From Clostridia bacterium (GTDB lineage Bacteria; Bacillota; Clostridia; Oscillospirales; CAG-272): 64,000 nt of DNA. Below, piece after piece: positions 7,530 through 26,151 of this stretch. Every line of letters begins with the position of its first letter. The first letter of the stretch is position 1. Under the pieces are notes generated by a model. It searched no databases and had not been told where the DNA came from. It worked only from the letters and a program-made list of their open reading frames with translations. The stretch covers positions 62,001 through 126,000 of the forward strand of contig JAFQVV010000026.1 in assembly GCA_017407835.1 (NCBI GenBank). Direction: 5' to 3'. Both the position numbers and the translations under genes were made by a program.

Positions 7530-7895
7530 ATGTTTAGTACTTTTGTATCCCAGGCGGCGCATGAAAGCGAACGTGTCCCCCGCGAAGGTGAGCTTTACCG
7601 GCTGGTAAATATTCACGGGAAGAGCTTTGCACTTCATTACGGATATTATGCGGAATGTGATCGGATAAATCCATTGGCTTCACCGATTCCCATTTATCCC
7701 GATTTTATCGAAGAGCCGCAATACACGGATGAAGGTTTTGCATTTGTCACCATGATGCAGGATGCATGTCAACACTTTGACGGCAAAGCCGATCGGGACA
7801 ATGATTGCAGCGGATGTGGGTATTTCAGCCGCTGTGAAGAATTGTTTGGCATCTGTACCTGCCAGGCGAACAAAAAGAAAACCAACGGTGAATGA
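7530..7895 (+). CDS. Small protein with C-terminal cysteine cluster
   Basis: A 121-residue protein whose start is fixed by an AAAGGAG box 7 nt before the ATG at 7530; the longer in-frame reading from 7491 lacks one. There is no signal peptide or membrane segment. The C-terminal 30 residues hold five cysteines in CxxCxxxxxCxxxxxxCxC spacing (DCSGCGYFSRCEELFGICTC), which could bind a metal or an Fe-S cluster. I do not recognise the family. It ends 41 nt before the giant SLH protein start, so the two may be co-transcribed from a promoter whose TATACT -10 box is at 7466-7471; no good -35 is visible, so an activator may be needed. Confidence 0.65.
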   Translation: MFSTFVSQAAHESERVPREGELYRLVNIHGKSFALHYGYYAECDRINPLASPIPIYPDFIEEPQYTDEGFAFVTMMQDACQHFDGKADRDNDCSGCGYFSRCEELFGICTCQANKKKTNGE

Positions 7896-7936
7896 AACGA
7901 AAAAGAAAAAACATATCAATAAATTGGAGGTTATTT

Positions 7937-10900
7937 ATGAGAACCAACTGGATGAGAACGATTAGTTTCATGCTTTCCTTGTGCATGATTATGTCGTTTC
8001 TGCCTATGGGTATATGGGCAGAGGGGGGGACTTCTTCCTCAAGTGCCATTATCCCCGCAGAAGAAACGGCGGTCATTACATTTATATTCAATGTAGACAG
8101 CACTGAATACGGAAGACAAAATATCAAGAGCGGGGAATCACTGATCGAGCCGGAAGCACCCTATAAGGCTTCGATGAAGTTCCTCGGCTGGTATACCGAA
8201 GAGGATACCCAATTCACTTCTTTCAATCAGCCTATGCTGATCAATACCGATGCAGAGATCACCCTGACTGCAAAGTTTGAGGAAGTATACCATGTTTACT
8301 TCCTCAATGCAGAGAACGGCTCGATTCTGGTGACTAAGGAAGCGAAAGACGGCGAAACAGTTTCGGTATCGGACGTCTCGCTTCACCTCTATGCAGACAC
8401 CGCGCTGACCGGATGGAAGGATGAGGCCGGCAAGACTGTTGGGGACAGCGTGACCGTCAACGGTGCCAATATCACACTCACACCGATTATTTCGGATGGC
8501 CATTGGATTACCTATGAGTCGGGCAGCGGCTCCTCGTATATCTGGCCTACTTTTGTTCCGCCCGGGACAGCAACGCATACCCCCGTTGAACCCGTCCGTC
8601 CGGGATATGTTTTCTCGCACTGGTCGCTGAGTGAAAACGGAAGTGCCTATACGTTCGGTTCTGTACTGACCGAAAGCATTACACTCTACGCTGTCTGGAC
8701 ACCCAGTACAAATACCAATTATCTCGTTATCCACTGGTGGGAGAATGCAGATAATACCGAGTATTCTTATCATGAGAGTGAAGTACTCAGCGGTACTACC
8801 GATACCATGAGTGCAGCGAGAGCAAAGAGCTACGGTGGCTTTACCGCACAAACCATTACCCAGCAGACCATTGAAGCCGATGGTTCGACGATTGTAAACG
8901 TTTACTACAACCGCAATATATATACCATCAAATTCCAAGAGTATGTGCGTTCGGGATTCCTCGGCGGCAGATGGCAGGATATTGATGGATTGACCATCAC
9001 CGCTAAGTATGGTGCACATATTGCCGGATTGTGGCCCTCTTCCACTTCATCCATGTGGCAAACGAGCTCCAGCAGCTGGGACACAAAGTATCAAAGCGGA
9101 ATCGATACCATGCCGCTTGGCGGAGCGACCTTCTATAAGCCAAGTGATGACGGCGGCAGCTATACGATGGAGCTCCGTTATTACACCGAGGTTCTCGATG
9201 GTACGGCAGGTGCTCATACATACAACGGCGGAAACTACAGCCTTGATCATAAAGATGTTTTTGGCAGCGATGACAATAGATGGTACACCACCGAAGAAGA
9301 CCACTATCCGATCATTGGTTTCACCTACACCAATAATCTGCCCGACCGTTCTTCCTTTACGCGTGAAGGCGACAGCAATCTCTATTATGTAGAATTCTTC
9401 TATACCAGAAATGATTACAACATCGTCTTCATCAACGGCGGCAGCACCGAGTCTACCGTTACCAAGCAGTACGGTGCAAGTTTGGATGATGTATCGCACA
9501 CGCCTGCACGCCCGGACAATGTACCGGTCGGCTATACCTTTGCCGGTTGGTATGACAATGAAGATCTGATCGGTAATCCCGTTTCTTTTGCAGGTCAGAC
9601 CATGCCCGCGGCAAATATAGTTGTTTATGCAAAATGGGTTGAGCCCGACATTACCGCAACCTTCTATTCCGGACGTATCGGGGCGGAAAACAATACCATT
9701 CTGCAGTCGCTGAATGTTGATTACGGTACCACGATTCCGCGCGATCAGATTCCGGTCTATCCGCTCGGCGGCACCTATAACTGGATCGGCTGGGTGACGG
9801 CTGACGGTGCAAACTTTAACTTTGATACCAAACTGTATGAGAGCGTAGAGCTCTATCCCTATTATGTCAGCCAGAACTACTTCACCGTGGAGTATGATGC
9901 CAACGGCGGTACAGGTACTGTACCGGTGGACGGCAATACCTACCTGGATTACAGTGAAGCTACCGTTCTTCCCGCTGAGGGGCTGAGCAAGAGTGGATAT
10001 GTATTCCTTGGCTGGAATACCGCAGCTGACGGCAGCGGCACGACCTATCAGCCCAATGACCTGATGCAGATCAAGTCGGTCAATGTCAAGCTTTGGGCGA
10101 AGTGGGGCGACGAACCTGCAGCTGGAACATCACTGACCTACGATGCAAACAACGGGTCGGGGGAGACGTATGTGCTCAGCAATCTCCTCAACAATACCAA
10201 GCATACCGTGCTTACGCTTGCCGCAACAGGCTTTAGCAACACCAATTATGAATTCTTGGGTTGGAGTGAGAGCGCATCGGCAAAAACGCCCGACTACCTG
10301 CCCGGTGATGCAGTCGTCCTCGCCAACAGCGGCACCAACATTCTGTATGCTGTCTGGGAGATCAAATTCACCTCCTATACGGTAAACTATTACCTCAACA
10401 ACACCACCGATGTACTTACCGCATCGAAGACCGTTGAAAATGCAGTCATCGGTTCAACGGTGACGACCGAAACACCCGTCGCAATCAATGGTTATACCCC
10501 CGTGGCTGGGCAGAGTGCAAATCTCGTTCTGGATGCTGATGCATCAAAGAATGTGATTAACTTCTATTATCACAAGAATGTCACCCTGACCGCCAACAGC
10601 AGCACCGTAAAATATGACGGCACGCAGAAGAGCGTCAGCGGCTATACCTCCAATGATGCGGGCGCCGTCTTTGCAGGCATTACCGTGGGGGCTGCCGGTA
10701 CCGATGCTGCAACCTATCCTGCGAAGTTTGCCTCCGGTGTTGTCGGGACGGTGGACGCGACAGGGAAGTATATTGTGGCAGAAGCGATTGACGGGGCACT
10801 CACCGTTCAGCCGCGTTCTCTCACCTTGACCTCCGCGTCCGACCAAAAAGGCTATGATGGCACACCACTGAAGAACGACGCTGTCTCTGTTTCGGGCGAC

Positions 10901-13900
10901 GGCTTTGTCGCAGGTGAGGGCGCTGCGTATACGGTAACCGGTTCGCAGACCTATGTTGGTACAAGCGACAATACCTTCACCTATACACTCAACGCAAACA
11001 CCAAAGCGCAGAACTATATGATCACAACTGAGTATGGCACACTCGCTGTTACCAATCTCCATGAGAGTGCCAAGTTTGAGATCACCGTTGAAGCAAACTC
11101 CGGGGAATATCTCTATGACGGCACCGAAAAAACAGTCAGCGGTCTTGTGACAACGACCTTTACCATAAACGGTGTGACCTATACCGTTGAGGGCTTGACT
11201 GCCTCTGCAGCAGGCACCAATGCAGGGAAATATTTCTCTGTGGTAAAGGGTACTCCTGTTGTCCGCGATGCCGCAGGTGTGGATGTAACCGCTCAGTTCG
11301 TCGTTGGGACCGTTGATGGTATCCTGACCGTCAACAAGCGTGCCATTACCTTCACCTCGGCAAGTGATCAGAAGGAATATGACGGCACGCCCCTGACCAA
11401 TGACACCGTAACGATCGGCGGGGACGGTTTTGCACCGAACGAAGAAAATCTTGTTGTCTTCAACGTATCCGGATCCCAGACGCTGGTCGGTTTCAGCCCC
11501 AATACCTTTGATTATCAACTCAAAAACAGAGCACTTTCCGAAAACTACACTATCACCAAGATTGAAGGTGAGCTGCGTGTCCTCACCAGAGACGCAAAAT
11601 ATGAAGTTACCGTTTACGCCAACGATGGGGAATTCCTCTACGATGGCCAAGAGCACGTTGTCAGCGGCTTCAAATCCCTTGAGGTTGAAGCAGGCGGCAA
11701 ACTCTACACTGTCTCCGGTCTGACTGCCGTGGGCAGGGCGACCAATGCAGGTACCTACTTTGTCACAGTTTCGGGTACGCCTGTTGTCACCGATGCGGAT
11801 GGCAACGATGTCAGCGGCGAGTTCGATGTTGATGCATTCCCCGGCAGACTGATCATTACCAAACGAGCCGTCACCCTAACCTCTGCGACTGCCGAGAAGG
11901 TTTATGACGGACAGCCGCTCTACGACCACACCGTGACTGTCAGCGGAAAGGATGGCTTTGTCGCAGGTGAGGGTGTCAACACTCACGTTACCGGTTCGCA
12001 AACCCTCGTTGGAACCGTACCGAACACCTTTACCTATACCGCCAAGGCAGGCACTAATCTCGATAACTATGAGATTGACAAAATTCAGGGTCAGCTGACA
12101 GTACATAACCGCTCCACGCTCTATGCCATCGAAGTTGAGGCAAACTCGGGTGAATTTACCTACGATGGTACCGAAAAGACGATCAGCGGCTTCAAGACTC
12201 TGACCTTCACGGTCGGCGGCAAAACCTATACTGTCTCTGGACTGACCGCATCCGGTAAGGGCACAGATGCAGGGCATTACTCGGTCACCGTATCGGGTAC
12301 ACCTGTTGTCCGTGACGATGCACAGAACGATGTCTCCGCACAGTTTGCTGTATCGGTCAAGCACGGTGAGATTTCGATTGCCAAGAGAACCGTTGTTCTG
12401 ACCTCGGCAACTGCCAGCAAGGAATATGACGGCAAGCCGCTGCAGAACGACAAGATCACGGTAACCGGAGACGGATTTGCCGATGGAGAGGGCGCTGCCT
12501 ACACCGCAACCGGTATCCAGACGCTTCCCGGCTCCAGCGAAAACCGCTTTACCTTCGCGCTCAATGCCAATACGGAGCGTGATAACTACAGCATTACCCT
12601 CAATTACGGTACTCTCACAGTAACCGACCGCGCCGCAAAGTATGAGATTACACTGCACGTCAACTCGGGCGAGTATCTCTACGATGGCAAAGAAAAAACG
12701 GTCAGCGGTTTCCGTAATACCGAGTTTGAAATTGGCGGACTTGATTTTACCGTCAGCGGTGTTACGGCATCCGTATCGGCAACCAACGCAGGTACCTATC
12801 CCGTTAAGATCACCGGTACGCCCGTTGTTCTGGATGCCTCAGGCAACGATGTAACAAGCCAGTTTATCGTGCACATCGACCACGGCATGCTGCAGATCAA
12901 CAAACGCAGCCTGACTCTTGTTTCGGCGAAAGACAGCAAGTTCTACGATGGTACACCGCTGACAAACAGCACGATCTCCATCATCGGTGCAGGCTTCGCT
13001 GACAGTGAAGGTGCATCGTATAATGTGACCGGCTCCCAGCTTCTTCCCGGTGAGAGCGATAACACCTTCACGTATACGCTCAATGTGGGGACTAATCCCG
13101 ACAACTATATTATCACCACCGCGTTTAGTAAGCTGATTGTTTTCTCCGCACAGGCGAAGTATGAGATTCTTGTAATTGCCAACAGCGGTGAATTCAAGTA
13201 TGACGGCACCGAAAAGACGGTGTCCGGCTTCACCACCCTCGATTTTACGATCAATGGTGTCAAGTATACGGTTGAGGGTATTCGTGCCGAAGCGAAGGGG
13301 ACCGACGCAGGTTATTATCCTGTCACCGTGATCGGCGATGCCATTGTCAAGGATGCGCACGGCAACAATGTCACCGATCAGTTTGCAGTGGATTACAGAC
13401 AGGGCACAATGCAGATCACACGTCGTGATGTTACGCTGACCTCGGGCAATGCCGAAAAGGTTTACGATGGTCTGCCCTTGATGGAGGATACCGTAACGGT
13501 TGGCGGTGACGGATTTGCTGTAGGTGAGGGTGCAGTGTATGATGTCACCGGCGAGAGAACGCTCCCCGGTACAAGTACCAACCACTTCAGCTATACCCTC
13601 AACGCAGGGACTAAAGCAGAAAACTACAATATCACACAGCTTTACGGGAACCTGACGGTGAACAACCGCGGTGCTAAGTATGAGATTACCGTAAAGGCAA
13701 AATCGGACGAAGTTGTCTATGACGGTAACGTACACGCTATCACCGCGCTTGAACAGACGGTATTTACCATTGATGGAAATGTTTATACTGTCTCCGGTCT
13801 GAATGTTGAAGGAATTGGTACAGACGCGGGCGAATACACCGTTCGCGTATGGGGTACTCCCGTTGTCTCTGACAGCGCAGGAAACAATGTGACCGCTCAG

Positions 13901-16900
13901 TTTACGGTGCATACCGATAACGGCAAGCTGATCATCAACAAGCGCAGTGTTACCATTGCGTCGGCCAACGCGCAGAAGCAATATGACGGCAAGGCGTTGA
14001 CCAACCATACTGTTTCTGTCACCGAAGGTTCGTTTGTAGGAACCGAGGGACTGATTTATACCGTTACCGGAACCCAGACGCTGATCGGTACCAGCCCCAA
14101 CACCTTCAGCTACGCCGCAAAGGCAAACACTAAACTCGGCAACTATGTCATTACGGTAAAATACGGTGAACTCTCCGTGCTTGATCGCACGCAGAAGTAC
14201 GAGATTACGCTTGAGGCAAATTCCGGTGAATTCGCCTATGACGGCAAGGAAAAGACTGTCTCCGGCTTCAAGACCTTGACCTTCACCATTGATGGGAATA
14301 CCTATACCGCAGAGGGGGCTTCCGCATCGGTTACTGCAGCTGCTGCAGGTACATATCCCGTCGAGATCAAGAACCTCGATCAGCTGGTGATCAAGGATGC
14401 TTCGGGCAATGATGTGACAAGCCAGTTCGTCGTTGTAACGGTGGACGGCTCGCTGAAGATCAATCCTCGCCGTGTCGTGCTTACCTCTGTCAGCCTGGAA
14501 AAGGAATATGACGGCAAGCCGCTGACCAACGGTAGCAATGCCATTGTGGTCTCCGAGGGCGGTTTTGCTGACGGAGAGGGTGTTGACATTACCTTTACCG
14601 GCGCCCAGACCAATGTCGGTACCAGTGCCAATGCCTTCACCTATACCATGAAGCAGGGAACAGACGCCCAGAACTACGAAATTCGCGTTGTCGAAGGCCA
14701 GCTCAAGGTTGTGAGCCGCGCCGATTCGACCAAGTATGAAATTACGCTGGTTGCAAATTCCGCAGACTATCTTTACACCGGCAAGGTAGAGTATGTCAGC
14801 GGCTTCAAGACTCTGGAATTCACCTTTGACGGCGTTACCTATTCAGTCAGCGGTGTCAAGGCATTTGCAGAAGGCACCGACGCAGGTAAATATACCGTTA
14901 ACATTACAGGTGATCCCGTTGTTACCGCGCCCGATGGCTCTGTTGTGACTGATCAGTTCAAGATCGACTATATCCGCGGTACCATGAATATTGCACACCG
15001 TGAGATTTATCTTGTATCTGCCGACCTGACCAAGGAATTTGACGGCACACCGCTGACCAATGGCAGCACACCGTTGGTCAATGTGAACCGCGGGGACGGT
15101 TTTGTCAACGGCGAAGGTGTTAAGGTTACCTTTACCGGTTCTCAGACCCTGCCCGGTACTGTTGCCAACAGCTTCACCTATACCTTCAACGAGGGCACCA
15201 AGGCCATCAACTACCATATCCACATTGAGGAAGGTCAGTTGACTGTTACTAACCGCAACGTGGCATATAAGATTTACCTGACTGCCAACAGCGGCGAATT
15301 CAAGTATGACGGCACCGAAAAAACGGTCACCGGTTTCCATACGCTGGTCGTTGGTTTGGATAAGAATAACAACAATCTGCCCGAAACAGACGAGCCGCAG
15401 GCGAAATTCGAGCTTTCCTCCTCGGATAAGATCAGCTTCACCTGGAACGGCGAGACATATGAGCTCACCGGTTTGACGGCGATGGGCCGCGGAACCAATG
15501 CTGACGAATATGCTGTCAGTGCATCGGGTACTGCGCAGATCAAAAACGCTGCAGGTGACGATGTCTCCGACCAGTTCGCAGTCATTGTCAAAGAAGGTAC
15601 GCTGGTAATCGGCAAGCGTTCGGTGATCATGACTTCTCCCACCGCAGCCAAGCAGTTTGACGGCAATCCCCTTACCGCACACGGCATTACCGTGACAGGT
15701 GACGGATTTGTCGAAGGTGAAGGCGCTTCCTACAACGAAATCGGTTCGCAGACCTATATTGGCGAGAGCCCCAACACCTTCTATTATACCCTCAATCAGG
15801 GCACGATGGCAGAAAACTATGCGATCACGACCGAATTCGGTAAACTCACCGTAACCGATCGTACCGATAAGTATGACATCACGCTCCAAGCAAACTCCGG
15901 TTCCTTCAAATATGATGGTACCGAAAAATCGGTTGAAGGCTTCAAGACTCTGACATTTGTCTTTGACGGTGTTACCTATACCGTAGATGGTGTGACTGCC
16001 TCCGCATCTGCGACCGATGCCGGTGAATATGCCGTCTCGGTTAAGGGAACTCCCGTTGTTCGTGACGAGAACGGAAAAGACCTTACCGCGTTGTTCAACG
16101 TGACAACGAACGATGGCAAGCTGACCATCACGAAGAGAAGCGTTTACCTCACGTCCGCATCTGCCGAAAAGGATTATGACGGCGCCCCCCTGACCAATCC
16201 TGCCGTTTCCGTGACGGGTGACGGTTTTGCCGCAGGCGAAGGTGCAGATTATACCGTAACCGGTTCGCAGACCGAGGTCGGCACATCGCCCAACACTTTC
16301 ACCTATACACTGTACAGCAATACCAAGGCAGACAACTACGAGATCATCTCGCAGTTCGGCCGGCTTCAGGTCTTCCTCTCAACCGGCAGTGCCATGCTGC
16401 ACAAGGTTGATTCCCGGGATTTTGATACCCCGCTGGCAGAGGCTGAATTTGAACTGTATGTTATGGGGTCTGACGGGGATGAGCTGATCGGCAGCTATGT
16501 TACCGATGCCGAAGGAAATATTTCGGTCACAGATTTGACGCCGGGTATGTATTATTGGGTAGAGATTACTGCCCCCGAGGGATATATGCTCGATACACAG
16601 AAGTATTATCTGACTGTCACCGTCGGCTCTGCTTCCGATGTAACTGTGACCAATGTAAGAACCCCCGTTCCCGATGTCTTTGGCTTCGATCACTTCGCAT
16701 ATATCATCGGCTATCCCGACGGTACTGTACGTCCCGAAGCCCCCATTACCCGTGCCGAGGTCGCAACCATCTTCTTCCGTCTGCTGGATGATAATGTTCG
16801 CAATGTGTATATGACCAAGGAGAACTCCTTTAATGATGTAAATAAGGATGCATGGTTCAATACGGCAATTTCGACAATGGCTGCAATGGGTATCTTACGC

Positions 16901-17347
16901 GGCGATCCTGACGGCTCTTTCCGTCCCGATGATTCCATTACCCGTGCAGAGTTTGCGGCAATCGCGGCACGCTTTGAAGAAAACGGCGATTCTACGCCCG
17001 CTAACTTTACTGATCTGTACAATCATTGGAGCGCAGAAGAGGTTAGCATTGCTGCCAATAATGGCTGGATTTTAGGCTATGAAGATAATACCTTCCGTCC
17101 CGATCAAAACATCACACGTGCGGAAGCCATGACGGTGATCAACCGTGTTCTGCAGAGAATCGTGAAAGATCCCGATCATCTTCTCGCAGGGATGGTGACC
17201 TGGAGCGACAATCTTGACACCAACAAGTGGTACTATCTCGCGGTTCAGGAAGCCACTAACAGCCACTATTATTCCCGCCAAGACAATGGGTATGAGATCT
17301 GGATTGATCTTCGTCCCATCAGAGATTGGAAAGAACTTGAAAAATAA
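7937..17347 (+). CDS. Giant cell-surface protein: InlB-type and MBG/YDG-type repeats, Cna-B domain, three SLH domains
   Basis: A secreted protein of about 3,136 residues. The ATG at 7937 has a GGAGG box; the earlier in-frame ATG at 7892 does not. Residues 1-28 form a signal peptide ending GIWA. Residues about 45-875 are some nine Listeria-Bacteroides (InlB B-type) or MucBP-like repeats with the FLGW / YAVW signature. Residues about 880-2815 are 11 tandem pairs of Ig-like modules (see the repeat entry). Residues about 2817-2909 form a Cna-B/SpaA-like domain (FDTPLAEAEFELY, ITAPEGYML). Residues about 2913-3076 are three SLH domains (GYPDGTVRPEAPITRAEVAT, RGDPDGSFRPDDSITRAEF, GYEDNTFRPDQNITRAEAM), which bind secondary cell-wall polymers. 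There is no LPXTG motif. It is likely an adhesin or S-layer-associated stalk; the ligand is unknown. Confidence 0.92.
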   Translation: MRTNWMRTISFMLSLCMIMSFLPMGIWAEGGTSSSSAIIPAEETAVITFIFNVDSTEYGRQNIKSGESLIEPEAPYKASMKFLGWYTEEDTQFTSFNQPMLINTDAEITLTAKFEEVYHVYFLNAENGSILVTKEAKDGETVSVSDVSLHLYADTALTGWKDEAGKTVGDSVTVNGANITLTPIISDGHWITYESGSGSSYIWPTFVPPGTATHTPVEPVRPGYVFSHWSLSENGSAYTFGSVLTESITLYAVWTPSTNTNYLVIHWWENADNTEYSYHESEVLSGTTDTMSAARAKSYGGFTAQTITQQTIEADGSTIVNVYYNRNIYTIKFQEYVRSGFLGGRWQDIDGLTITAKYGAHIAGLWPSSTSSMWQTSSSSWDTKYQSGIDTMPLGGATFYKPSDDGGSYTMELRYYTEVLDGTAGAHTYNGGNYSLDHKDVFGSDDNRWYTTEEDHYPIIGFTYTNNLPDRSSFTREGDSNLYYVEFFYTRNDYNIVFINGGSTESTVTKQYGASLDDVSHTPARPDNVPVGYTFAGWYDNEDLIGNPVSFAGQTMPAANIVVYAKWVEPDITATFYSGRIGAENNTILQSLNVDYGTTIPRDQIPVYPLGGTYNWIGWVTADGANFNFDTKLYESVELYPYYVSQNYFTVEYDANGGTGTVPVDGNTYLDYSEATVLPAEGLSKSGYVFLGWNTAADGSGTTYQPNDLMQIKSVNVKLWAKWGDEPAAGTSLTYDANNGSGETYVLSNLLNNTKHTVLTLAATGFSNTNYEFLGWSESASAKTPDYLPGDAVVLANSGTNILYAVWEIKFTSYTVNYYLNNTTDVLTASKTVENAVIGSTVTTETPVAINGYTPVAGQSANLVLDADASKNVINFYYHKNVTLTANSSTVKYDGTQKSVSGYTSNDAGAVFAGITVGAAGTDAATYPAKFASGVVGTVDATGKYIVAEAIDGALTVQPRSLTLTSASDQKGYDGTPLKNDAVSVSGDGFVAGEGAAYTVTGSQTYVGTSDNTFTYTLNANTKAQNYMITTEYGTLAVTNLHESAKFEITVEANSGEYLYDGTEKTVSGLVTTTFTINGVTYTVEGLTASAAGTNAGKYFSVVKGTPVVRDAAGVDVTAQFVVGTVDGILTVNKRAITFTSASDQKEYDGTPLTNDTVTIGGDGFAPNEENLVVFNVSGSQTLVGFSPNTFDYQLKNRALSENYTITKIEGELRVLTRDAKYEVTVYANDGEFLYDGQEHVVSGFKSLEVEAGGKLYTVSGLTAVGRATNAGTYFVTVSGTPVVTDADGNDVSGEFDVDAFPGRLIITKRAVTLTSATAEKVYDGQPLYDHTVTVSGKDGFVAGEGVNTHVTGSQTLVGTVPNTFTYTAKAGTNLDNYEIDKIQGQLTVHNRSTLYAIEVEANSGEFTYDGTEKTISGFKTLTFTVGGKTYTVSGLTASGKGTDAGHYSVTVSGTPVVRDDAQNDVSAQFAVSVKHGEISIAKRTVVLTSATASKEYDGKPLQNDKITVTGDGFADGEGAAYTATGIQTLPGSSENRFTFALNANTERDNYSITLNYGTLTVTDRAAKYEITLHVNSGEYLYDGKEKTVSGFRNTEFEIGGLDFTVSGVTASVSATNAGTYPVKITGTPVVLDASGNDVTSQFIVHIDHGMLQINKRSLTLVSAKDSKFYDGTPLTNSTISIIGAGFADSEGASYNVTGSQLLPGESDNTFTYTLNVGTNPDNYIITTAFSKLIVFSAQAKYEILVIANSGEFKYDGTEKTVSGFTTLDFTINGVKYTVEGIRAEAKGTDAGYYPVTVIGDAIVKDAHGNNVTDQFAVDYRQGTMQITRRDVTLTSGNAEKVYDGLPLMEDTVTVGGDGFAVGEGAVYDVTGERTLPGTSTNHFSYTLNAGTKAENYNITQLYGNLTVNNRGAKYEITVKAKSDEVVYDGNVHAITALEQTVFTIDGNVYTVSGLNVEGIGTDAGEYTVRVWGTPVVSDSAGNNVTAQFTVHTDNGKLIINKRSVTIASANAQKQYDGKALTNHTVSVTEGSFVGTEGLIYTVTGTQTLIGTSPNTFSYAAKANTKLGNYVITVKYGELSVLDRTQKYEITLEANSGEFAYDGKEKTVSGFKTLTFTIDGNTYTAEGASASVTAAAAGTYPVEIKNLDQLVIKDASGNDVTSQFVVVTVDGSLKINPRRVVLTSVSLEKEYDGKPLTNGSNAIVVSEGGFADGEGVDITFTGAQTNVGTSANAFTYTMKQGTDAQNYEIRVVEGQLKVVSRADSTKYEITLVANSADYLYTGKVEYVSGFKTLEFTFDGVTYSVSGVKAFAEGTDAGKYTVNITGDPVVTAPDGSVVTDQFKIDYIRGTMNIAHREIYLVSADLTKEFDGTPLTNGSTPLVNVNRGDGFVNGEGVKVTFTGSQTLPGTVANSFTYTFNEGTKAINYHIHIEEGQLTVTNRNVAYKIYLTANSGEFKYDGTEKTVTGFHTLVVGLDKNNNNLPETDEPQAKFELSSSDKISFTWNGETYELTGLTAMGRGTNADEYAVSASGTAQIKNAAGDDVSDQFAVIVKEGTLVIGKRSVIMTSPTAAKQFDGNPLTAHGITVTGDGFVEGEGASYNEIGSQTYIGESPNTFYYTLNQGTMAENYAITTEFGKLTVTDRTDKYDITLQANSGSFKYDGTEKSVEGFKTLTFVFDGVTYTVDGVTASASATDAGEYAVSVKGTPVVRDENGKDLTALFNVTTNDGKLTITKRSVYLTSASAEKDYDGAPLTNPAVSVTGDGFAAGEGADYTVTGSQTEVGTSPNTFTYTLYSNTKADNYEIISQFGRLQVFLSTGSAMLHKVDSRDFDTPLAEAEFELYVMGSDGDELIGSYVTDAEGNISVTDLTPGMYYWVEITAPEGYMLDTQKYYLTVTVGSASDVTVTNVRTPVPDVFGFDHFAYIIGYPDGTVRPEAPITRAEVATIFFRLLDDNVRNVYMTKENSFNDVNKDAWFNTAISTMAAMGILRGDPDGSFRPDDSITRAEFAAIAARFEENGDSTPANFTDLYNHWSAEEVSIAANNGWILGYEDNTFRPDQNITRAEAMTVINRVLQRIVKDPDHLLAGMVTWSDNLDTNKWYYLAVQEATNSHYYSRQDNGYEIWIDLRPIRDWKELEK
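10574..16380 (+). repeat. Eleven tandem repeat pairs (about 176 aa each) in the giant surface protein
   Basis: Each unit pairs module A (KYEITVEANSGEYLYDGTEK-like, ending in DGxLTINK) with module B (RxVTLTSAxAEKxYDGTPLT-like, with GDGFAxGEG, TGSQT and NTFTYTL). Units begin near 10574, 11070, 11596, 12119, 12637, 13153, 13673, 14191, 14729, 15262 and 15867. They match the style of bacterial Ig-like YDG/MBG repeats. Unit 10 is longer because of a hydrophilic insertion (LDKNNNNLPETDEPQ). The copies have diverged at the DNA level, so the array is not freshly duplicated. Confidence 0.9.
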
Positions 17348-17869: not shown

Positions 17870-17898
17870 TTGACATTGTCAGTTTAATATGATAAAAT
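17870..17898 (+). promoter_or_regulatory. Promoter of the ilvA-leu operon
   Basis: TTGACA (17870-17875) and TAAAAT (17893-17898) are 17 bp apart, just ahead of the T-box leader. Confidence 0.8.
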
Positions 17899-17923: not shown

Positions 17924-18380
17924 GCGATGACGAAGAATGGACGGGATATGCGTACATTTCAGAGAGCCGATGGTTGGTGCAAATCGGTATGTAATAATCT
18001 TGTCCTCTCACTTCCGAGCCGGAAGCCTGAAGCGACGGTGTGTAGGGCGACTCGTGTATGCTACGTAAGTGCATAGAGGTTGATTGACTTCGACAAATAA
18101 AGGCGTTGATGAAGACGGAAACCGCAATGAATTTTACAGAGAGTCGGGGATGGTGTGATCCCGATAAAGGAGTACGGATTTTCTATCCCTTCTGAGCCGG
18201 AAGCCCCAAAGGTTGAACACCCAGTAGGCGTTTCCCGTGTATGCTACGTCAGTGTATAGAAGTTGTTTGACTTCGAAGAGGTGGCGGATTATTTATATCC
18301 GCAATTTGAGTGGTACCGCGAGTGCTGAATTTTGATTTACACCCGTCTCAAAGCAAGTGAAGGCTTTGGGGCGGTTTTTG
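17924..18380 (+). ncRNA. T-box leader with two stem I units (Leu CTC and Ile ATC specifiers) and one antiterminator
   Basis: Two related units of about 178 nt follow each other. Each has an AGAGAG bulge (17961 and 18138), an apical GATGGT(TG)GTG(C/T) segment, and GAGCCGGAAGCC. The triplet six nt before GAGCC is CTC (18007-18009) in unit 1 and ATC (18185-18187) in unit 2, which are Leu and Ile codons. Only one T-box motif is present: TGGTACCGCG at 18311-18320, after unit 2. Its TGGT would pair with an ACCA tRNA end, as in tRNA-Leu and tRNA-Ile. The terminator is CCGTCTCAAAGC (18343-18354) with GCTTTGGGGCGG (18363-18374) and TTTTT. The downstream genes make Ile and Leu precursors, so dual sensing is plausible. 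Confidence 0.85.
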
Positions 18381-18449
18381 TTTTTGCCGTCCGCGGTCTT
18401 CTCGGTGCAGTCACAGGATGATAGATATATAAGAAAGGTGGAATAAATT

Positions 18450-19640
18450 ATGTTATCGCTTGACAAAGTATTCAATGCCCAGACCGTGCTCAAAACCATT
18501 ATCCGAGAAACGAATGTCGTCAGAGCGTATGGGATTGCTCCCCACTGTGAACTATACCTAAAACCCGAAAATCTTCAAATCACAGGCTCATTTAAGGTGC
18601 GCGGCTCGGCATATAAAATTGCCATGCTCTCCGAAGAAGAAAAGAAAAAGGGCGTCATCGCTTGTTCAGCAGGCAATCATGCACAGGGGGTTGCTCTTGC
18701 GGCAACCAAAAACGGCATCAAATCCTTGATTTGTTTGCCCGACAGTGCTCCCATTTCCAAGGTGGAGGCGACTAAAGGCTTTGGTGCTGAGGTTTGCCTG
18801 GTGGAAGGCTGCTACGACGATGCCTACCAAAAAGCACGAGAACTGCAGGAGAGTAAAGGTTACACATTTGTCCATCCGTTTGACGATGAAAACGTCATTG
18901 CGGGGCAGGGGACGATTGCGCTTGAAATTTTAAGCGATCTCGATAACATTGATGCGATTGTTGTTCCTATCGGCGGCGGAGGACTGATTTCCGGTATTGC
19001 TTACACGGCAAAACAGATAAGACCTTCTGTCAAGGTATACGGTGTACAAGTTGCAGGTGCACCGAGTATGTATAATTCAATCAAAGACGGGGAAATTACG
19101 TGCCTTTCTTCGGTTTCCACCATTGCAGACGGAATCGCCGTGAAAAAACCCGGTGAGAATACATACGCGCTGGTCAAAGAATATGTGGACGAAATCGCAC
19201 TTGTCACAGATGATGAGGTCGCAAGTGCAATTCTTGCGCTGATCGAAAAGCAGAAAATGATCGCGGAAGGTGCCGGGGCTGCAGCTGTGGCTGCCGTAAT
19301 GTTTAATAAATTTGATTTGCGCGGGAAACGTGTTGCGGCCGTTGTCTCGGGCGGTAATATTGATGTGACAAGCCTGTCCCGTGTCATTGATCGAGGTCTG
19401 CGAAATTCCGGTCGTTCTTCCGGTCTTTTGATCGAGCTGATTGATAAGCCCGGACAGTTAAAGGATATTTCGCGCATTATTGCCGATTGTGGCGGAAATG
19501 TAACGGGTGTTCACTATGAAAAAGGCAACACGGAAAGCGTAAACGGTTGTTTCCTCCGGATTGAAATGGAGACAAGAGATTTTGAACATGTTAACCTCAT
19601 CACACGCTCTCTGCGTGATGAAGGGTTTAAGCTCGTTTAA
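18450..19640 (+). CDS. ilvA: Threonine ammonia-lyase (threonine dehydratase) with C-terminal ACT domain
   Basis: A PLP enzyme of 396 residues that converts threonine to 2-oxobutanoate and ammonia, the first committed step to isoleucine. The PLP lysine is in the SFKVRGSAYK segment (about residue 48). The phosphate-binding glycine loop is VPIGGGGLISG (about 174-184) and the ASN-type loop is SAGNHAQGVA. Residues about 325-396 form one ACT regulatory domain, as in the shorter TdcB/IlvA forms of Firmicutes (the long E. coli IlvA has two). It is first in the operon behind the Leu/Ile T-box, which supports a biosynthetic role. The RBS is AAAGGTGG. Confidence 0.95.
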   Translation: MLSLDKVFNAQTVLKTIIRETNVVRAYGIAPHCELYLKPENLQITGSFKVRGSAYKIAMLSEEEKKKGVIACSAGNHAQGVALAATKNGIKSLICLPDSAPISKVEATKGFGAEVCLVEGCYDDAYQKARELQESKGYTFVHPFDDENVIAGQGTIALEILSDLDNIDAIVVPIGGGGLISGIAYTAKQIRPSVKVYGVQVAGAPSMYNSIKDGEITCLSSVSTIADGIAVKKPGENTYALVKEYVDEIALVTDDEVASAILALIEKQKMIAEGAGAAAVAAVMFNKFDLRGKRVAAVVSGGNIDVTSLSRVIDRGLRNSGRSSGLLIELIDKPGQLKDISRIIADCGGNVTGVHYEKGNTESVNGCFLRIEMETRDFEHVNLITRSLRDEGFKLV

Positions 19641-19658: not shown

Positions 19659-20042
19659 ATGATGCGCAGAAAAATTCAGACTGACAAGGCTCCGGCGGCA
19701 ATTGGCCCCTACACACAGGCCATTGTGGTAGGTAATCTTATCTTTACGTCGGGGCAGATCCCTCTAAATCCCGAGACCGGAATGCTGGAGGGCAAAACAA
19801 TTGCCGAACAAACGCATCGTATTTGTCAAAATTTAGAGGCGGTACTCTCTGCAGCCGGCGGCTCGCTGAAAAGTGTTGTCAAAACGGTATGTTTCCTTGA
19901 TGATATGGCAGATTTCGCCGCCTTCAATGAGGTATACGCGCAGTACTTTACCGATAAACCCGCAAGATCCTGCGTGGCGGTGAAGGCGCTTCCCAAAGGT
20001 GCTCTGATCGAAGTAGAAGTCATCGCAGAAATGGAGGAATAA
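19659..20042 (+). CDS. ridA: RidA family enamine/imine deaminase
   Basis: A 127-residue RidA/YjgF protein. The family hydrolyses reactive 2-aminoacrylate and 2-aminocrotonate, the immediate products of PLP dehydratases such as IlvA. It shows APAAIGPYTQAIVVGNLIFT (about residues 11-30) and FTSGQIPLNPETG. The Arg-Ser-Cys-Val-Ala-Val segment (about 104-110) holds the conserved substrate-binding arginine. The gene starts 18 nt after ilvA and 3 nt before leuA. A second ATG at 19662 is an equally possible start. Confidence 0.95.
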   Translation: MMRRKIQTDKAPAAIGPYTQAIVVGNLIFTSGQIPLNPETGMLEGKTIAEQTHRICQNLEAVLSAAGGSLKSVVKTVCFLDDMADFAAFNEVYAQYFTDKPARSCVAVKALPKGALIEVEVIAEMEE

Positions 20043-20045
20043 CCG

Positions 20046-21719
20046 ATGATGGATTCAAGCAAATACCGTGTAGGGTATTTCCCGGTAGATGATCGGTATA
20101 GCGGATGGGTAAAAAAGGACCATATCGAAAAACCGCCTGTGTGGTGCAGTGTGGATATGCGGGACGGCAATCAAAGTCTGGTGATTCCCATGAGCTTGGA
20201 AGAAAAATTGGAATATTATCGGGTGCTTTTGGAGGTCGGTTTTAAGGAAATTGAAGTCGGTTTCCCGGCAGCCAGCGAAACCGAGTATGAATTTTTGCGC
20301 ACACTGATTGATCACGACATGATTCCTGCAGATGTCACCGTTCAGGTGCTGACACAATGCCGTGAGCATATTATTCGCAAGACCTTTGATGCCTGCAAGG
20401 GGGCGCCCAGTGCAATTATTCATTTTTACAATTCAGTGAGTGTGGCCCAGCGTGAGCAGGTGTTCAAAAAGAGCAAGGAAGAGATCAAACAAATCGCCAT
20501 TGACGGTGCAAATCTGGTCAAACGCTTGGCCGGTGAGTACGAAGGCAACTTCCGCTTTGAATATTCCCCCGAGTCGTTTACGGGCACTGAGCCGGAATAT
20601 GCACTCGAGGTTTGCAATGCCGTTCTGGATGTGCTTGAACCGAGTGCCGACAACAATGTGATTATCAATCTTCCGGTCACGGTGGAGATGAGTTTGCCCC
20701 ATGTTTACGCCTCACAGGTCGAATACATGAGCGAAAATCTCAAATACCGCGAATTTGTGACCTTGTCACTTCACCCGCATAACGACAGAGGAACAGGTGT
20801 CGCCGATACCGAGCTGGCATTGCTTGCCGGCGCCGATCGGGTAGAGGGAACACTGTTCGGTAATGGTGAGCGAACCGGCAATGTGGATATCATCACCTTG
20901 GCAATGAATATGTATGCGCACGGTGTTGATCCTAAGCTTGATCTTTCCAATATGAACTATCTTGTGGAAAAATATGAAAAATGTACCCGTATGCACGTCT
21001 ACGAAAGAGCGCCCTATGCAGGTGCGCTTGTCTTTGCAGCATTCTCAGGCTCACATCAGGACGCAATTGCCAAGGGCATGAAGTTCCGAAGCAAGCATAA
21101 ACTTCACGAGTGGAGCGTTCCGTATATTCCGATTGATCCCCGGGATATCGGGCGCACCTACGATGCGGATGTTATTCGGGTGAATTCGCAGTCGGGCAAG
21201 GGCGGTATCGGCTATCTGCTGGAGCAGACCTTTGGCTACAATTTACCGCCGAAAATGCGCGAACATTTCAGTTATCTGTGCAAGGATATTTCCGACCGCC
21301 AGCATAAGGAGCTCAAGCCGGATGAAGTACTCGATATTTTCACTGCGCACTATTTGAATTTGAAGGGCGGAATTGAAGTCTCGGATTTCGATTTCATGCG
21401 TGAAAACGATGCCGTGAAAATCAATATCACATTCAAACGCAATGGTCAAGAAACTGAGATGGAGGCAGAGGGCAACGGTACGCTCAGTGCCATCAATAAT
21501 GCACTTGCGGCGTATACAGGGGAGCAGTATACCCTTCAGGTCTTTACCCAGCACAGTATGCAGGGCGAAGGCTCACGCAGTGTGGCAGCCTCTTATATCG
21601 GCCTTGAACGCGCGGATGGCAGAATGTTTTGGGGCGCGGGCACCAATACAGACGTGATTACAGCGAGCACGAAAGCACTTCTCAGTGCATTTTACAATAT
21701 GACTAAGGAGGGGGAATAA
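20046..21719 (+). CDS. leuA: 2-isopropylmalate synthase, long (type 2) form
   Basis: A DRE-TIM metallolyase of 557 residues that condenses acetyl-CoA with 2-oxoisovalerate in the first leucine-specific step. The catalytic start is [10 protein letters not shown] (about residues 37-46), followed by [13 protein letters not shown]. The metal-binding HPHND lies near 242 and [10 protein letters not shown] near 275. The C-terminal region (about 440-557) resembles the LeuA allosteric dimer domain. Its length and [16 protein letters not shown]-terminus fit the type 2 LeuA found in actinobacteria and some Clostridia. It is followed after 2 nt by leuC. Feedback inhibition by leucine is usual in the family, in addition to the T-box. 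Confidence 0.95.
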
Positions 21720-21721
21720 GT

Positions 21722-22984
21722 ATGGGTATGACGATGACGCAGAAGATCCTTGCAGCGCACGCAGGCTTGGATAAAGTAGAGGCGGGGCAGTTGATCAATG
21801 CGAACTTGGATATCGTTCTGGGCAATGATATTACCACACCGGTGGCCATCAATGAATTCAAAAAAGCGGGATTTACTTCTGTGTTCGACCGAGACAGAGT
21901 TGCCATTGTATTGGACCACTTTGTTCCGAATAAAGACATCAAGGCGGCAGAACAGTCCAAAACTTGCCGTGAATTTTCCTGTTCTCATTGCATCAGTCAC
22001 TTCTACGACGTGGGGAAAATGGGAATTGAACATGCTCTGCTCCCCGAACAGGGCGTTGTCACCGCCGGTGACTGCATCATCGGCGCAGACAGCCATACCT
22101 GTACATACGGCGCCCTCGGCGCATTTTCTACCGGTGTAGGTTCGACCGATATGGCAGCAGGTATGGCAACCGGTATGGCTTGGTTTAAGGTGCCCTCTGC
22201 AATCAAGATTCATCTGACGGGTAAATTGCCGTCAAATTGCAGCGGTAAGGATGTCATTCTGACGATTATTGGCATGATCGGCGTGGACGGTGCGCTGTAT
22301 AAGAGCATGGAATTTACCGGTGAGGGGGCGCATGGATTGTCGATGGATGATCGCCTCTGTATTTGCAATATGGCCATTGAAGCAGGTGCCAAAAACGGGA
22401 TTTTCCCTGTGGATGACGTGACAATGGCCTATTTGAAGGGCAGAAGCGAGAGAGAAGGCGTTGTCTTTGAAGCAGATGCCGATGCCGAATACGAGAGGAC
22501 AATTGAAATTGATCTTTCCCAAATTGTCCCCACCGTTGCTTGCCCCCATCTTCCCGAAAATACCCATCCCGCAAGCGAACTGCACGGAATCAAGGTCGAT
22601 CAGGTTGTGATCGGCTCCTGCACCAACGGGCGCATGGAGGATATGGAAGCTGCATATACCATCCTGAAGGGGAAAAAGATTGCCGACGGGCTTCGCTGCA
22701 TTATCATTCCGGGTACCATGCAAATCCTGCGTGCGTGTGTTGAGCGGGGATGGTATACTGCATTTATCGATGCGGGAGCGGTGGTATCCACGCCTACCTG
22801 CGGACCTTGCCTTGGCGGATACATGGGCATTCTGGCGGCAGGCGAGAAATGTCTTGCCACCACCAATCGCAATTTCGTCGGTCGTATGGGGCATGTCGAG
22901 AGCGAAGTTTACCTTGCTTCCCCCCACACCGCTGCCGCGACCGCACTGACAGGGTATATCACCGAGTATAAGGAGGGCGAGTGA
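21722..22984 (+). CDS. leuC: 3-isopropylmalate dehydratase, large subunit
   Basis: The aconitase-family large subunit, 420 residues, the shorter form common in archaea and Clostridia. With LeuD it isomerises 2- to 3-isopropylmalate. The [4Fe-4S] ligands are in GSCTNG (about residue 300) and PTCGPCLGG (about 360). [12 protein letters not shown] and GSTDMA carry substrate-binding residues. The stop codon overlaps the leuD start (TGATG), so the two subunits are translationally coupled. Confidence 0.95.
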
Positions 22985-23481
22985 TGAACACCAAAGGCAA
23001 AGTTTTCAAATATCCCGATAACGTAGATACCGATGTCATCATTCCGGCGCGTTATCTCAACACCCCCGATGCAAAAGAACTTGCCCTCCACTGTATGGAG
23101 GATATCGATACCGAGTTTGTGGGGAAGGTGCAGGCAGGCGATGTCATGGTTGCCGGCTGGAATTTCGGCTGCGGTTCGTCCCGCGAGCACGCCCCGCTTG
23201 TGATCAAAACCTGCGGTACAGGGTGTGTGATCGCCAAAAGTTTTGCGAGAATCTTCTACCGCAACGCCATCAATATCGGTTTGCCGATTCTCGAGTGCGA
23301 AGCGGCGGCAGAAGAAATCCAAGCAGACGATATCGTTGAAGTGAATTTTGATACCGGGATCATTACCGACATTACAACCGGAAAACGCTATCAGGCACAG
23401 CCGTTTCCCCCGTTTATTCAGACCATCATCCAATGCGGAGGTCTGCTCAACTCCTTGAAAGAAGGCGAAAATCATGGTTAA
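22984..23481 (+). CDS. leuD: 3-isopropylmalate dehydratase, small subunit
   Basis: The 165-residue swivelling domain of isopropylmalate isomerase. [14 protein letters not shown] (about residues 12-25) and [15 protein letters not shown] (about 57-71) are family signatures; GSSREHAP carries substrate-binding residues. The start is the ATG inside the leuC stop (TGATG), with GGAGGGCGAG just upstream. The gene overlaps leuB by 8 nt at its 3' end. Confidence 0.95.
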
Positions 23482-24541
23482 ACAGATAGCAGTTATCCGT
23501 GGAGACGGCATCGGTCCCGAGATCGTTGATCAAGCGCTGAGGGTGCTCGATCGGATTGCTGTACTCTACGGCCACACATTTCACTATACCGACGTGGATA
23601 TGGGCGGATGTGCCATCGATAAATATGGCGATCCGCTGCCCGAGTCCGAGCTGAAAAAGTGTGTGGAGTCGGATAGTGTTTTGCTTGGTGCCGTGGGCGG
23701 CGACAAATGGAATAATGTCCCCGGTCATCTTCGCCCCGAGCGAGGATTGCTTCGTCTGCGTGCGGGGATGGGGGTGTACTCCAATAACCGTCCGGCGAAA
23801 ATCTGGCCTCAGCTTGCCGATGCATCACCCCTCAAAGCGTCAATTGTTGCGCAAGGAATTGATTTTATTATTGTCCGCGAGCTGATCGGCGGAATCTACT
23901 TCGGCGAGCATAAGACAGAGGGGAATACCGCGATCGATGTACTCAAATACAGTGAAACCGAAATTGAGCGCATCGGCAGAATCGGCTTTGAGACGGCGCA
24001 GAAACGAAACAAAAAGCTCTGCTCGGTGGAAAAAAGCAATGTGCTGGATTCCAGCCGCTTATGGAAGAAGGTCATGCATCGTTTGGCTGCGGAATATCCG
24101 GATGTTGAGCTTTCCGATATGCTGGTTGACAACTGTGCGATGCAAATCGTGAAGAATCCGGCTCAGTTTGATGTCATCGTGACAGAAAATATGTTCGGTG
24201 ATATTTTATCCGATGAAGCATCGATGATCACCGGCTCAATCGGGATGATTCCATCCTCCAGTTTGGGGGCGACTGCTTGCGGTTTGTATGAGCCGATTCA
24301 CGGCTCCGCCCCCGATATTGCCGGGCAGGACAAAGCCAACCCAATCGGGACAATTCTGTCGGCGGCGATGATGCTGCGCTACAGCTTCGATATGCCGGGG
24401 GAAGCCGATGCCATTGAGCACGCGGTTTCTTCTTTCCTTGATGCTGGGTTCCGTACCGCTGATATTATGTCTGACGGCATGACGCTTGTCGGATGTCAGC
24501 GGTGCGGTGAACTGATTGTTCGCAGCCTGCAAAAGATATAA
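23474..24541 (+). CDS. leuB: 3-isopropylmalate dehydrogenase
   Basis: A beta-decarboxylating dehydrogenase of 355 residues that makes 2-oxoisocaproate with NAD. It has the N-terminal [19 protein letters not shown], the substrate arginines in [15 protein letters not shown], the lysine/aspartate active-site strand [19 protein letters not shown], the metal aspartates in [17 protein letters not shown], and the NAD-site [10 protein letters not shown]. It overlaps the end of leuD by 8 nt. No ilvBNCD genes are in the window. Confidence 0.95.
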
Positions 24542-24577: not shown

Positions 24578-25759
24578 ATGGATGCATTAAAAAATAGGCT
24601 GGATACGCTGTGTGTGTTCAGGGGCATACGGAAAGATCCGGTCATTGCTGCACTGCGTACTTATCTTGAAGCTCCAACAAATTCGGCATATGCCGAATTT
24701 GTTGCCCTGCTGTATGCTGCGAACGGCGGAAATCTCGGGGAATATGTGAGAGAGCTTTGTGAGAACAGTGAAAATATATATGTAAAGACAGTCGGAAGAG
24801 AAAAAGAAGTTCCCGATTATTTGCATTTTGCACTTTTGTCCGAACTGGATACCTTGCAGCAGATCGCGGAACTTGACCAAAAAAGCCTTTGTTCTCTGCT
24901 TGACTACACGGGATTTTTGCCCGATTTCACAACCGTAAAATTGCAATTGAGGGATACATATCTCCACCGCACGGAGAATATCGGCCAATACGGCTACGGC
25001 ATTTATGCGAAGAATAAGATGTTTTGCGTGGATGAAGCGGGGAACATTGTTCCGGTACGCAATCCCGATCGGATCGACCTCTCACAGCTTGTGGACTATG
25101 CGCGTGAGAGACAGATTATCCTGGACAACACCCGGGCACTGCTCGAAGGTAAGCCTGCCGCGAATATTCTTTTGACAGGCGATGCCGGAACAGGGAAGTC
25201 CTCTACGGTCAAAGCAGTTGCCAACGCCCTGTGGGGACAGGGGCTGCGCATCATTGAAATACGCAAAGATCAGCTCCGTGCAATTCCGAAAATTCTGGAT
25301 GAACTCTCGGAGAACCCCCTGAAATTTGTGCTGTTTATCGACGATCTTTCTTTCTTGAAGGATGACGATAACTTCAACGCCCTCAAAGCGGTATTGGAAG
25401 GCTCGGTGACGGCGAAATCCAATAATGTCGTCATTTATGCAACAAGCAATCGCAGACATATTATCAAAGAGAAGCTATCTGACCGTGAAGGGGACGAAGT
25501 TCACCGCAACGATACGATGCAGGAACTGATTTCTCTTTCCGAACGATTCGGTATTCATGTCTCCTTCTCCAAGCCCAATAAAGAAACCTTTCTGCATATT
25601 GTGCATCATTTGGCAGAGGAGAGCGGCATTGATATGGACATGGATGAATTAGATTTGCTTGCCGAACGCTTTGCCCTGGCACGCGGAGGTCGATCTGCAC
25701 GCTTGGCACGCCAGTTTGTGGACGGTCTGTTGTCACAGCAGGACAAATGCGGCGGTTGA
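24578..25759 (+). CDS. DUF815-type AAA ATPase
   Basis: A 393-residue P-loop protein. Residues about 1-165 form an uncharacterised N-terminal region. Walker A is GDAGTGKSS (about 202-210) and Walker B VLFIDDLSF (about 250-258), followed by a sensor-like YATSNRRH. This is the pattern of the DUF815 family of AAA ATPases, whose role is unknown. It starts 36 nt after leuB with an AAAAGGTG box, so read-through from the leu operon is likely, but no functional link to leucine synthesis is known. A perfect 30-bp palindrome lies inside its 5' region. Confidence 0.88.
   Translation: MDALKNRLDTLCVFRGIRKDPVIAALRTYLEAPTNSAYAEFVALLYAANGGNLGEYVRELCENSENIYVKTVGREKEVPDYLHFALLSELDTLQQIAELDQKSLCSLLDYTGFLPDFTTVKLQLRDTYLHRTENIGQYGYGIYAKNKMFCVDEAGNIVPVRNPDRIDLSQLVDYARERQIILDNTRALLEGKPAANILLTGDAGTGKSSTVKAVANALWGQGLRIIEIRKDQLRAIPKILDELSENPLKFVLFIDDLSFLKDDDNFNALKAVLEGSVTAKSNNVVIYATSNRRHIIKEKLSDREGDEVHRNDTMQELISLSERFGIHVSFSKPNKETFLHIVHHLAEESGIDMDMDELDLLAERFALARGGRSARLARQFVDGLLSQQDKCGG
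24675..24704. repeat. Perfect 30-bp palindrome inside the DUF815 gene
   Basis: CAACAAATTCGGCAT (24675-24689) is followed without a spacer by its exact reverse complement (24690-24704). It encodes part of the segment TNSAYAEFV (about residues 35-43). A chance perfect 30-bp palindrome in coding DNA is unlikely. Its function is unknown. Confidence 0.9.
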
Positions 25760-25860: not shown

Positions 25861-26151
25861 AACATAAACCGTTGAAGCGGAGATAACGTCATTCAAGACT
25901 ACACAGAGAGCCCGTGCAGCTGAGAGTCGGGTTAGAACCTGTTTGGCAAATGGACCGCGGAGGGCGCAGTCAACGGCGAAATGCGTTTCGCTCAGTATTC
26001 TGCGACGTTGCAGACAGACGTTATTTGTCGGAGATATGTTGGTATCTCGCTAAGTGCATTGCCATGGGCAATGAATCAAGGTGGCACCGCGGATAGTGTT
26101 TGAGCTGTTCGTCCTTGACAGAGAGTGTATATTTCTGTCAAGGACGTTTTT
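25861..26151 (+). ncRNA. Tryptophan T-box leader
   Basis: This tRNA-sensing leader has ACAGAGAG at 25902-25909. The specifier triplet TGG (25951-25953) stands six nt before GAG, the same offset as in the ilvA leader. The T-box is AAGGTGGCACCGCGG (26078-26092). Its TGGC bulge would pair with a tRNA end GCCA, and tRNA-Trp carries the G discriminator. The terminator is CGTCCTTGACAG (26110-26121) pairing perfectly with 26135-26146, then TTTTT. Uncharged tRNA-Trp should allow read-through into trpB. Confidence 0.92.

Follow-up and report, generated by a model that had tools for sequence, protein, structure and literature searches.

A leucine and an isoleucine T-box decoding domain in series before a single antiterminator: a candidate two-tRNA switch upstream of ilvA-ridA-leuACDB

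Complete tandem T-boxes are well known, and are expected to need both of their tRNAs (PMC12452182; PMC9413887). A 2025 survey presents T-boxes as complete tandem units and puts the glycine riboswitch first among families with adjacent aptamers (PMC12452182), and a 2020 review names 'partially tandem' T-boxes without detail, giving their mode of action as unknown (PMC7583486). Adjacent aptamers for different ligands on one expression platform are found in guanine-PRPP leaders, which act as a logic gate (PMC9481103). Where does a leader belong that has two T-box decoding domains of different specificity and only one antiterminator? Such a leader lies between a strong promoter and ilvA in a 64,000-nt stretch of a Clostridia bacterium contig (JAFQVV010000026.1, positions 62,001 to 126,000), the whole of which we call the window; the host is described as a gut bacterium. 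The features of the leader and its operon are collected in Table 1.

Table 1. Features of the double-unit leader and the operon behind it, in window positions
Feature	Position	Strand	Basis or conservation
Sigma-70-type promoter TTGACA-17-TAAAAT, TG-extended, just upstream of unit 1	17870-17898	+	consensus scan, 11/12
Transcribed leader with two T-box decoding domains	17924-18384	+
Unit 1, leucine decoding domain (stem I, stem II, IIA/B pseudoknot, hairpin)	17924-18093	+	36 pairs, covarying; 32 leaders
Unit 1 stem I, AGAGAG apical T-loop at 17961-17966	17924-18019	+
Specifier 1, CTC (Leu)	18007-18009	+	CTC 30/32, GTC 1, CTG 1
Unit 1 IIA/B pseudoknot (18053-18075) and extra hairpin (18076-18091)	18053-18091	+
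A-rich junction between units	18094-18102	+	8-12 nt in 32/32 leaders
Unit 2, isoleucine decoding domain (stem I, stem II, IIA/B pseudoknot, hairpin)	18103-18276	+	Rfam match and alignment
Specifier 2, ATC (Ile)	18185-18187	+	ATC 31/32, TTC in L077
Stem III	18284-18302	+	two-sided changes in 4/6 pairs
Single antiterminator, T-box core TGGTACCGCG at 18311-18320	18305-18352	+	core identical 32/32
Single intrinsic terminator (18343-18374) and U-tract, competes with antiterminator	18343-18384	+
ilvA, threonine ammonia-lyase (isoleucine precursor)	18450-19640	+	TIGR01127
ridA, Rid family deaminase	19659-20042	+	TIGR00004
leuA, 2-isopropylmalate synthase	20046-21719	+	NF002991
leuC	21722-22984	+	TIGR02083
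leuD	22981-23481	+	TIGR02084
leuB	23474-24541	+	TIGR00169

The original prediction placed two aligned units here, with CTC and ATC at matching places, each six nt before GAGCC, and drew support from a Trp leader downstream with TGG at the same offset; all of this holds, the TGG lying at 25951-25953. The prediction also spoke of two stem I units, and while the two units are real, unit 1 is more than a stem I, being a whole decoding domain. Read by hand and in the alignment, it has the K-turn GA pairs, GAAG/CUUC, a specifier loop with CUC, upper helices with the AGAGAG and UGxRA T-loops, a stem II, a pseudoknot of CGU/ACG plus UAUGC/GCAUA, and a hairpin ending CUUCGA. Its 3' end falls exactly where stem III would begin, and the A-rich junction and stem I of unit 2 follow. 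Both units have the stem I of a T-box, with specifier loop, K-turn and apical AGAGA/UGxRA T-loops, and they share one antiterminator with a UGGNACCGCG bulge, opposed by a terminator. The anatomy observed also meets the definition of adjacent aptamers in PMC12452182, two aptamers less than 20 nt apart followed by one platform. It does not meet that of a tandem, in which each unit has an antiterminator and a terminator of its own: the core occurs once in the leader, after unit 2 only, as had been predicted, there is one terminator, and a sequence check found neither terminator nor T-box core between the units in this leader, and no core between them in any of the 32 that we aligned. Complete tandem T-boxes were rejected as a description on this ground. 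A variant with stem I alone in unit 1 (gap 60-90) was not found in 394 genomes of the order.

How well do existing models see this leader? The Rfam T-box model, RF00230, aligns along its full length with unit 2 and the antiterminator (18097-18353, 83 bits, E 1.8e-18), short of its gathering cut-off of 93 bits, and does not report unit 1. The cut-off is a curation threshold and not a biological feature, and it is strict for this lineage, since the Trp leader also falls below it (79.5 bits) and only five of the genome's 14 T-boxes pass it. That the lineage's T-boxes score under the cut-off is the reason why a default scan of the 64-kb window, at gathering threshold, missed both T-boxes. The plain ViennaRNA minimum-energy fold is not the T-box fold, and pairs unit 1 with unit 2; pseudoknots and tertiary contacts are not modelled by this method, and the result is uninformative. 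The kind of fold that would have refuted the prediction, with unit 1 lacking a stem I or its CTC paired, was not seen: unit 1 keeps a covarying stem I, with CTC unpaired at the specifier place.

A pattern scan of GTDB (CAGAGAG-N155-185-CAGAGAG-N150-180-TGGNACCGCG) returned 51 contigs, of which 37 carry true doubles with the same specifier pair, if Val and single-base variants are counted. The second stem I is absent from the other 14, which were set aside as chance matches. Further doubles were added by a search of 395 genomes of the family, and the alignment set consists of 32 non-redundant leaders with a mean identity of 81%. The order of the units is constant in the doubles, Leu or Val first and Ile second, and the specifier columns are nearly fixed in the 32 leaders, with variation in the adjacent loop columns. 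Over the whole structure, two-sided changes are observed in 36 of the 88 pairs, against 8-16 in slid controls, and 95.6% of cells are paired, against 31-50% in the controls. The helices of unit 1 contribute their share of these changes (5/5 and 3/5 pairs in the apical helices, 3/3 in stem II), which argues that unit 1 is under structural selection. Unit 1 is the less conserved of the two, at a mean identity of 0.71 against 0.81 for unit 2, and pairing in three of its helices reaches only 75-84% of cells. A decayed copy, the other outcome that would have undone the prediction, is rejected by the conservation and covariation of unit 1, which has kept CTC (or GTC/CTG) across the aligned leaders. 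The layout is kept by dozens of related species, and this suggests a natural two-input switch, probably one that responds when either amino acid is short.

Which genes stand behind such leaders? By family models the operon here serves both an isoleucine precursor and leucine, as originally read, and the Leu and Ile specifiers match that content. Nearly all doubles precede ilvA(-ridA)-leuACDB or ilvA-ilvBNCD. The first gene is ilvA in 33 of the 36 GTDB doubles with a visible gene, usually followed by ridA-leuACDB, and in Gemmiger and Fournierella, on those contigs where the next genes are visible (L078, L086 and L093), by ilvBN-ilvC(-ilvD). Three Fournierella leaders before ilvA (L065, L079 and L086) have Val (GTC) as specifier 1, and ilvBNCD is visible on the L086 contig only. 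We also compared leuA homologs from 117 genomes of the order, together with the earlier relatives. All 11 of the T-box-led leuA operons that lack ilvA have just one T-box, with CTC; where ilvA stands without leu genes, the T-box is mostly single too and reads ATC (four genomes; one more operon is cut by a contig end); and an ilvA-led operon from another family has the CTC+ATC double. An Ile specifier is present before 10 of the 14 T-box-led operons with ilvA, vs none of the 11 leuA operons without it (Fisher ~3e-4, calculated by hand, the genomes not being independent). As far as specifiers can tell, an operon that covers the two pathways has a leader for both tRNAs. Four ilvA-leu operons carry only one T-box, with CTC as its specifier, and in two near-identical exceptions, L050 and L087, both units are retained and the first gene is leuA, not ilvA.

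Several observations concern neighboring genes and other leucine T-boxes. On another contig of the same genome ilvBNCD stands behind its own single Leu (CTC) T-box, so that genes for Ile/Val synthesis answer to leucine there, and in a second genome of the genus the gene behind a single Leu T-box of close similarity is MaoC-like (identified by eye) and not a leu gene. After leuB, the window encodes a 393-aa protein (24578-25759) with no NCBIfam match and an ATP-binding, AAA-type look, homologs of which (63-73%) also follow branched-chain amino acid operons in Gemmiger (L093) and in one further genome (G137). Positions 7892-17347 encode a repeat-rich putative surface protein of 3151 aa, whose C-terminal repeats resemble S-layer homology domains by eye.

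What evolutionary event might account for the double? A tree of 83 decoding domains places unit 1 sequences together with the single Leu T-boxes found before leuACDB, and unit 2 sequences beside the single Ile T-box that precedes an ilvA operon. The starred split of this tree stands at 98/88, many forks are weak, the bootstrap is not settled, and the unit 1 sequences of L046 and L060 lie near the divide. By whole-leader BLAST, single Leu leaders are colinear with the double minus unit 2. On the strength of the grouping and the colinearity, a scenario resting on sequence comparison alone is that the decoding domain of a Leu T-box was fused onto an Ile T-box, and this is probably how the double arose. 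In some leaders parts of one unit resemble those of the other, namely stem II of unit 1 in four leaders (L056, L057, L075 and L092) and the apex of unit 2 in L060, which suggests that exchange, or gene conversion, may have occurred between the two decoding domains.

Can one antiterminator accept different tRNAs? The tRNA-Leu(GAG) of this genome, which pairs with CUC by Watson-Crick rules, carries the discriminator base A73, as its Val tRNAs also do, and this base is complementary to the U of the UGGU bulge; the discriminator bases, as observed, are compatible. The gene for tRNA-Ile(GAU) is absent from this assembly, and we presume its A73 from general knowledge. With A73 in all of them, one UGGU bulge can serve Leu, Val and, on that presumption, Ile tRNAs. 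The Trp T-box before trpB (window 25863-26119) has a TGGC (UGGC) bulge that matches the G73 of the genome's tRNA-Trp, and so the bulge-discriminator rule holds in this genome.

The account to which we incline, with somewhat more confidence than doubt, is that the Leu and Ile decoding domains lie in series before a shared discriminator, made up of stem III, antiterminator and terminator, and work by OR logic. Uncharged tRNA-Leu(GAG) would dock on unit 1, or uncharged tRNA-Ile(GAU) on unit 2, and the free ACCA end of the bound tRNA would engage the single UGGU bulge, stabilizing the antiterminator, so that polymerase would proceed into ilvA-ridA-leuACDB. The operon would then be on whenever either leucine or isoleucine is scarce. 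For unit 1 to signal, the roughly 175 nt of unit 2 would have to be looped out, folded, between the pseudoknot and hairpin of unit 1 and stem III. The fuller claim, of a natural two-tRNA OR gate born by Leu-Ile fusion in which the upstream tRNA acts across a looped-out 175-nt domain, is in our judgment evenly balanced between right and wrong. A two-input leader, the idea originally put forward, remains the best reading; tRNA binding, read-through and action of unit 1 over unit 2 are inferred, in the absence of binding or termination data, and the choice between OR, AND and competitive logic is likewise inference without an assay. OR is the simplest account, because unit 2 and the discriminator need nothing more to make a complete T-box, and because single-input versions exist. 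Counting against it are the greater variability of unit 1, the L050 and L087 exceptions, the four ilvA-leu operons with a single Leu T-box, the lack of tRNA-Ile(GAU) in the assembly, and the minimum-energy fold. We know of no T-box structure in which a tRNA reaches across an inserted domain.

It is possible, though we think it unlikely, that the gate is hierarchical or competitive. The Ile unit, next to the antiterminator, would then be the main switch, with tRNA-Leu as a weak extra activator that tunes it, or the two tRNAs would compete for the bulge, charged tRNA at unit 2 blocking unit 1. The Ile unit is always proximal to the antiterminator, and is the more conserved, as such an arrangement would have it. 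The leader L077 speaks against it: the genes visible there are ridA-leuA, without ilvA, the Ile unit has changed (TTC, on a long branch), and the Leu unit is intact with CTC, a pattern that fits a unit 1 able to act alone. A cooperative AND gate, needing both uncharged tRNAs, is distinctly improbable. In such a gate tRNA-Leu bound to unit 1 might, for example, position unit 2, or prevent a misfold between the units, which are similar enough to cross-pair and do so in the unconstrained fold; that two aptamers on one platform can cooperate is known from the glycine riboswitch (PMC9481103). An obligatory AND is unlikely because unit 2, stem III and the antiterminator already form a complete T-box by themselves; in addition, related operons run on one input, a single Leu or a single Ile T-box, and a leu operon that stayed off under leucine starvation alone would make little sense. 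Least probable of all is a unit 1 silent toward the antiterminator, a tRNA-Leu-binding module with some other role (pausing, leader stability or transcript protection) or a slowly decaying relic, for although unit 1 has no antiterminator of its own, has its specifier some 300 nt upstream of the T-box core, and varies more than unit 2, its specifier and helices are held by selection in 32 divergent leaders, and the identity of the specifier tracks the pathway (Leu, or Val in Fournierella).

Why might two decoding domains on one antiterminator matter? Complete tandem T-boxes would be expected to work as AND gates, a logic suited to a single amino acid sensed twice and not to an operon with two products; a shared antiterminator would be the natural route to OR. 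The occurrence in nature of single-Leu, single-Ile, Leu+Ile and Val+Ile leaders, in front of operons that match them, makes the logic directly testable, and the family would test how far apart the decoding and discriminator parts of a T-box can lie. The leader also offers a ready two-input RNA part.

How does the leader compare with T-boxes of unusual structure? Vitreschak et al. in 2008 reportedly described T-boxes with duplicated terminator-antiterminator elements; there the expression platform is said to be doubled, whereas here it is the decoding domain, with a different specificity. Saad et al. (in PNAS, 2013; cited in PMC4919913) are said to have described a two-codon T-box that binds two tRNAs, so that one T-box answers to two tRNAs, as proposed here, but with the two codons sharing a specifier loop within a single stem I in place of two separate decoding domains. 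The ordinary class I transcriptional T-box of RF00230 shares with the present leader the stem I with K-turn, specifier loop and AGAGA/UGxRA T-loops, the stem II, the IIA/B pseudoknot, stem III, the UGGN antiterminator and the terminator, and differs in lacking an extra upstream decoding domain that has another specifier and no discriminator of its own. The original prediction named complete tandem T-boxes as known to its author, and the present arrangement as not; the literature bears out the first part, and our search, in which key older T-box literature was incompletely covered, found no earlier description of a leader where two T-box decoding domains that differ in specificity share one antiterminator. 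The 'partially tandem' T-boxes share with it a partial duplication of the T-box (PMC7583486). The complete tandems of trp, ilv/leu, thrS, his and other operons (PMC12452182, PMC9413887) likewise put two sensors in one leader, often before branched-chain amino acid or trp genes, but each unit there has its own antiterminator and terminator, so that all must read through, whereas here a short linker separates the units and one platform follows. The guanine-PRPP and tandem glycine riboswitches (PMC9481103) are alike in having two aptamers and one expression platform; the present leader differs from them in that its two ligands would both be tRNAs, and its aptamers are homologous T-box domains of different specificity.
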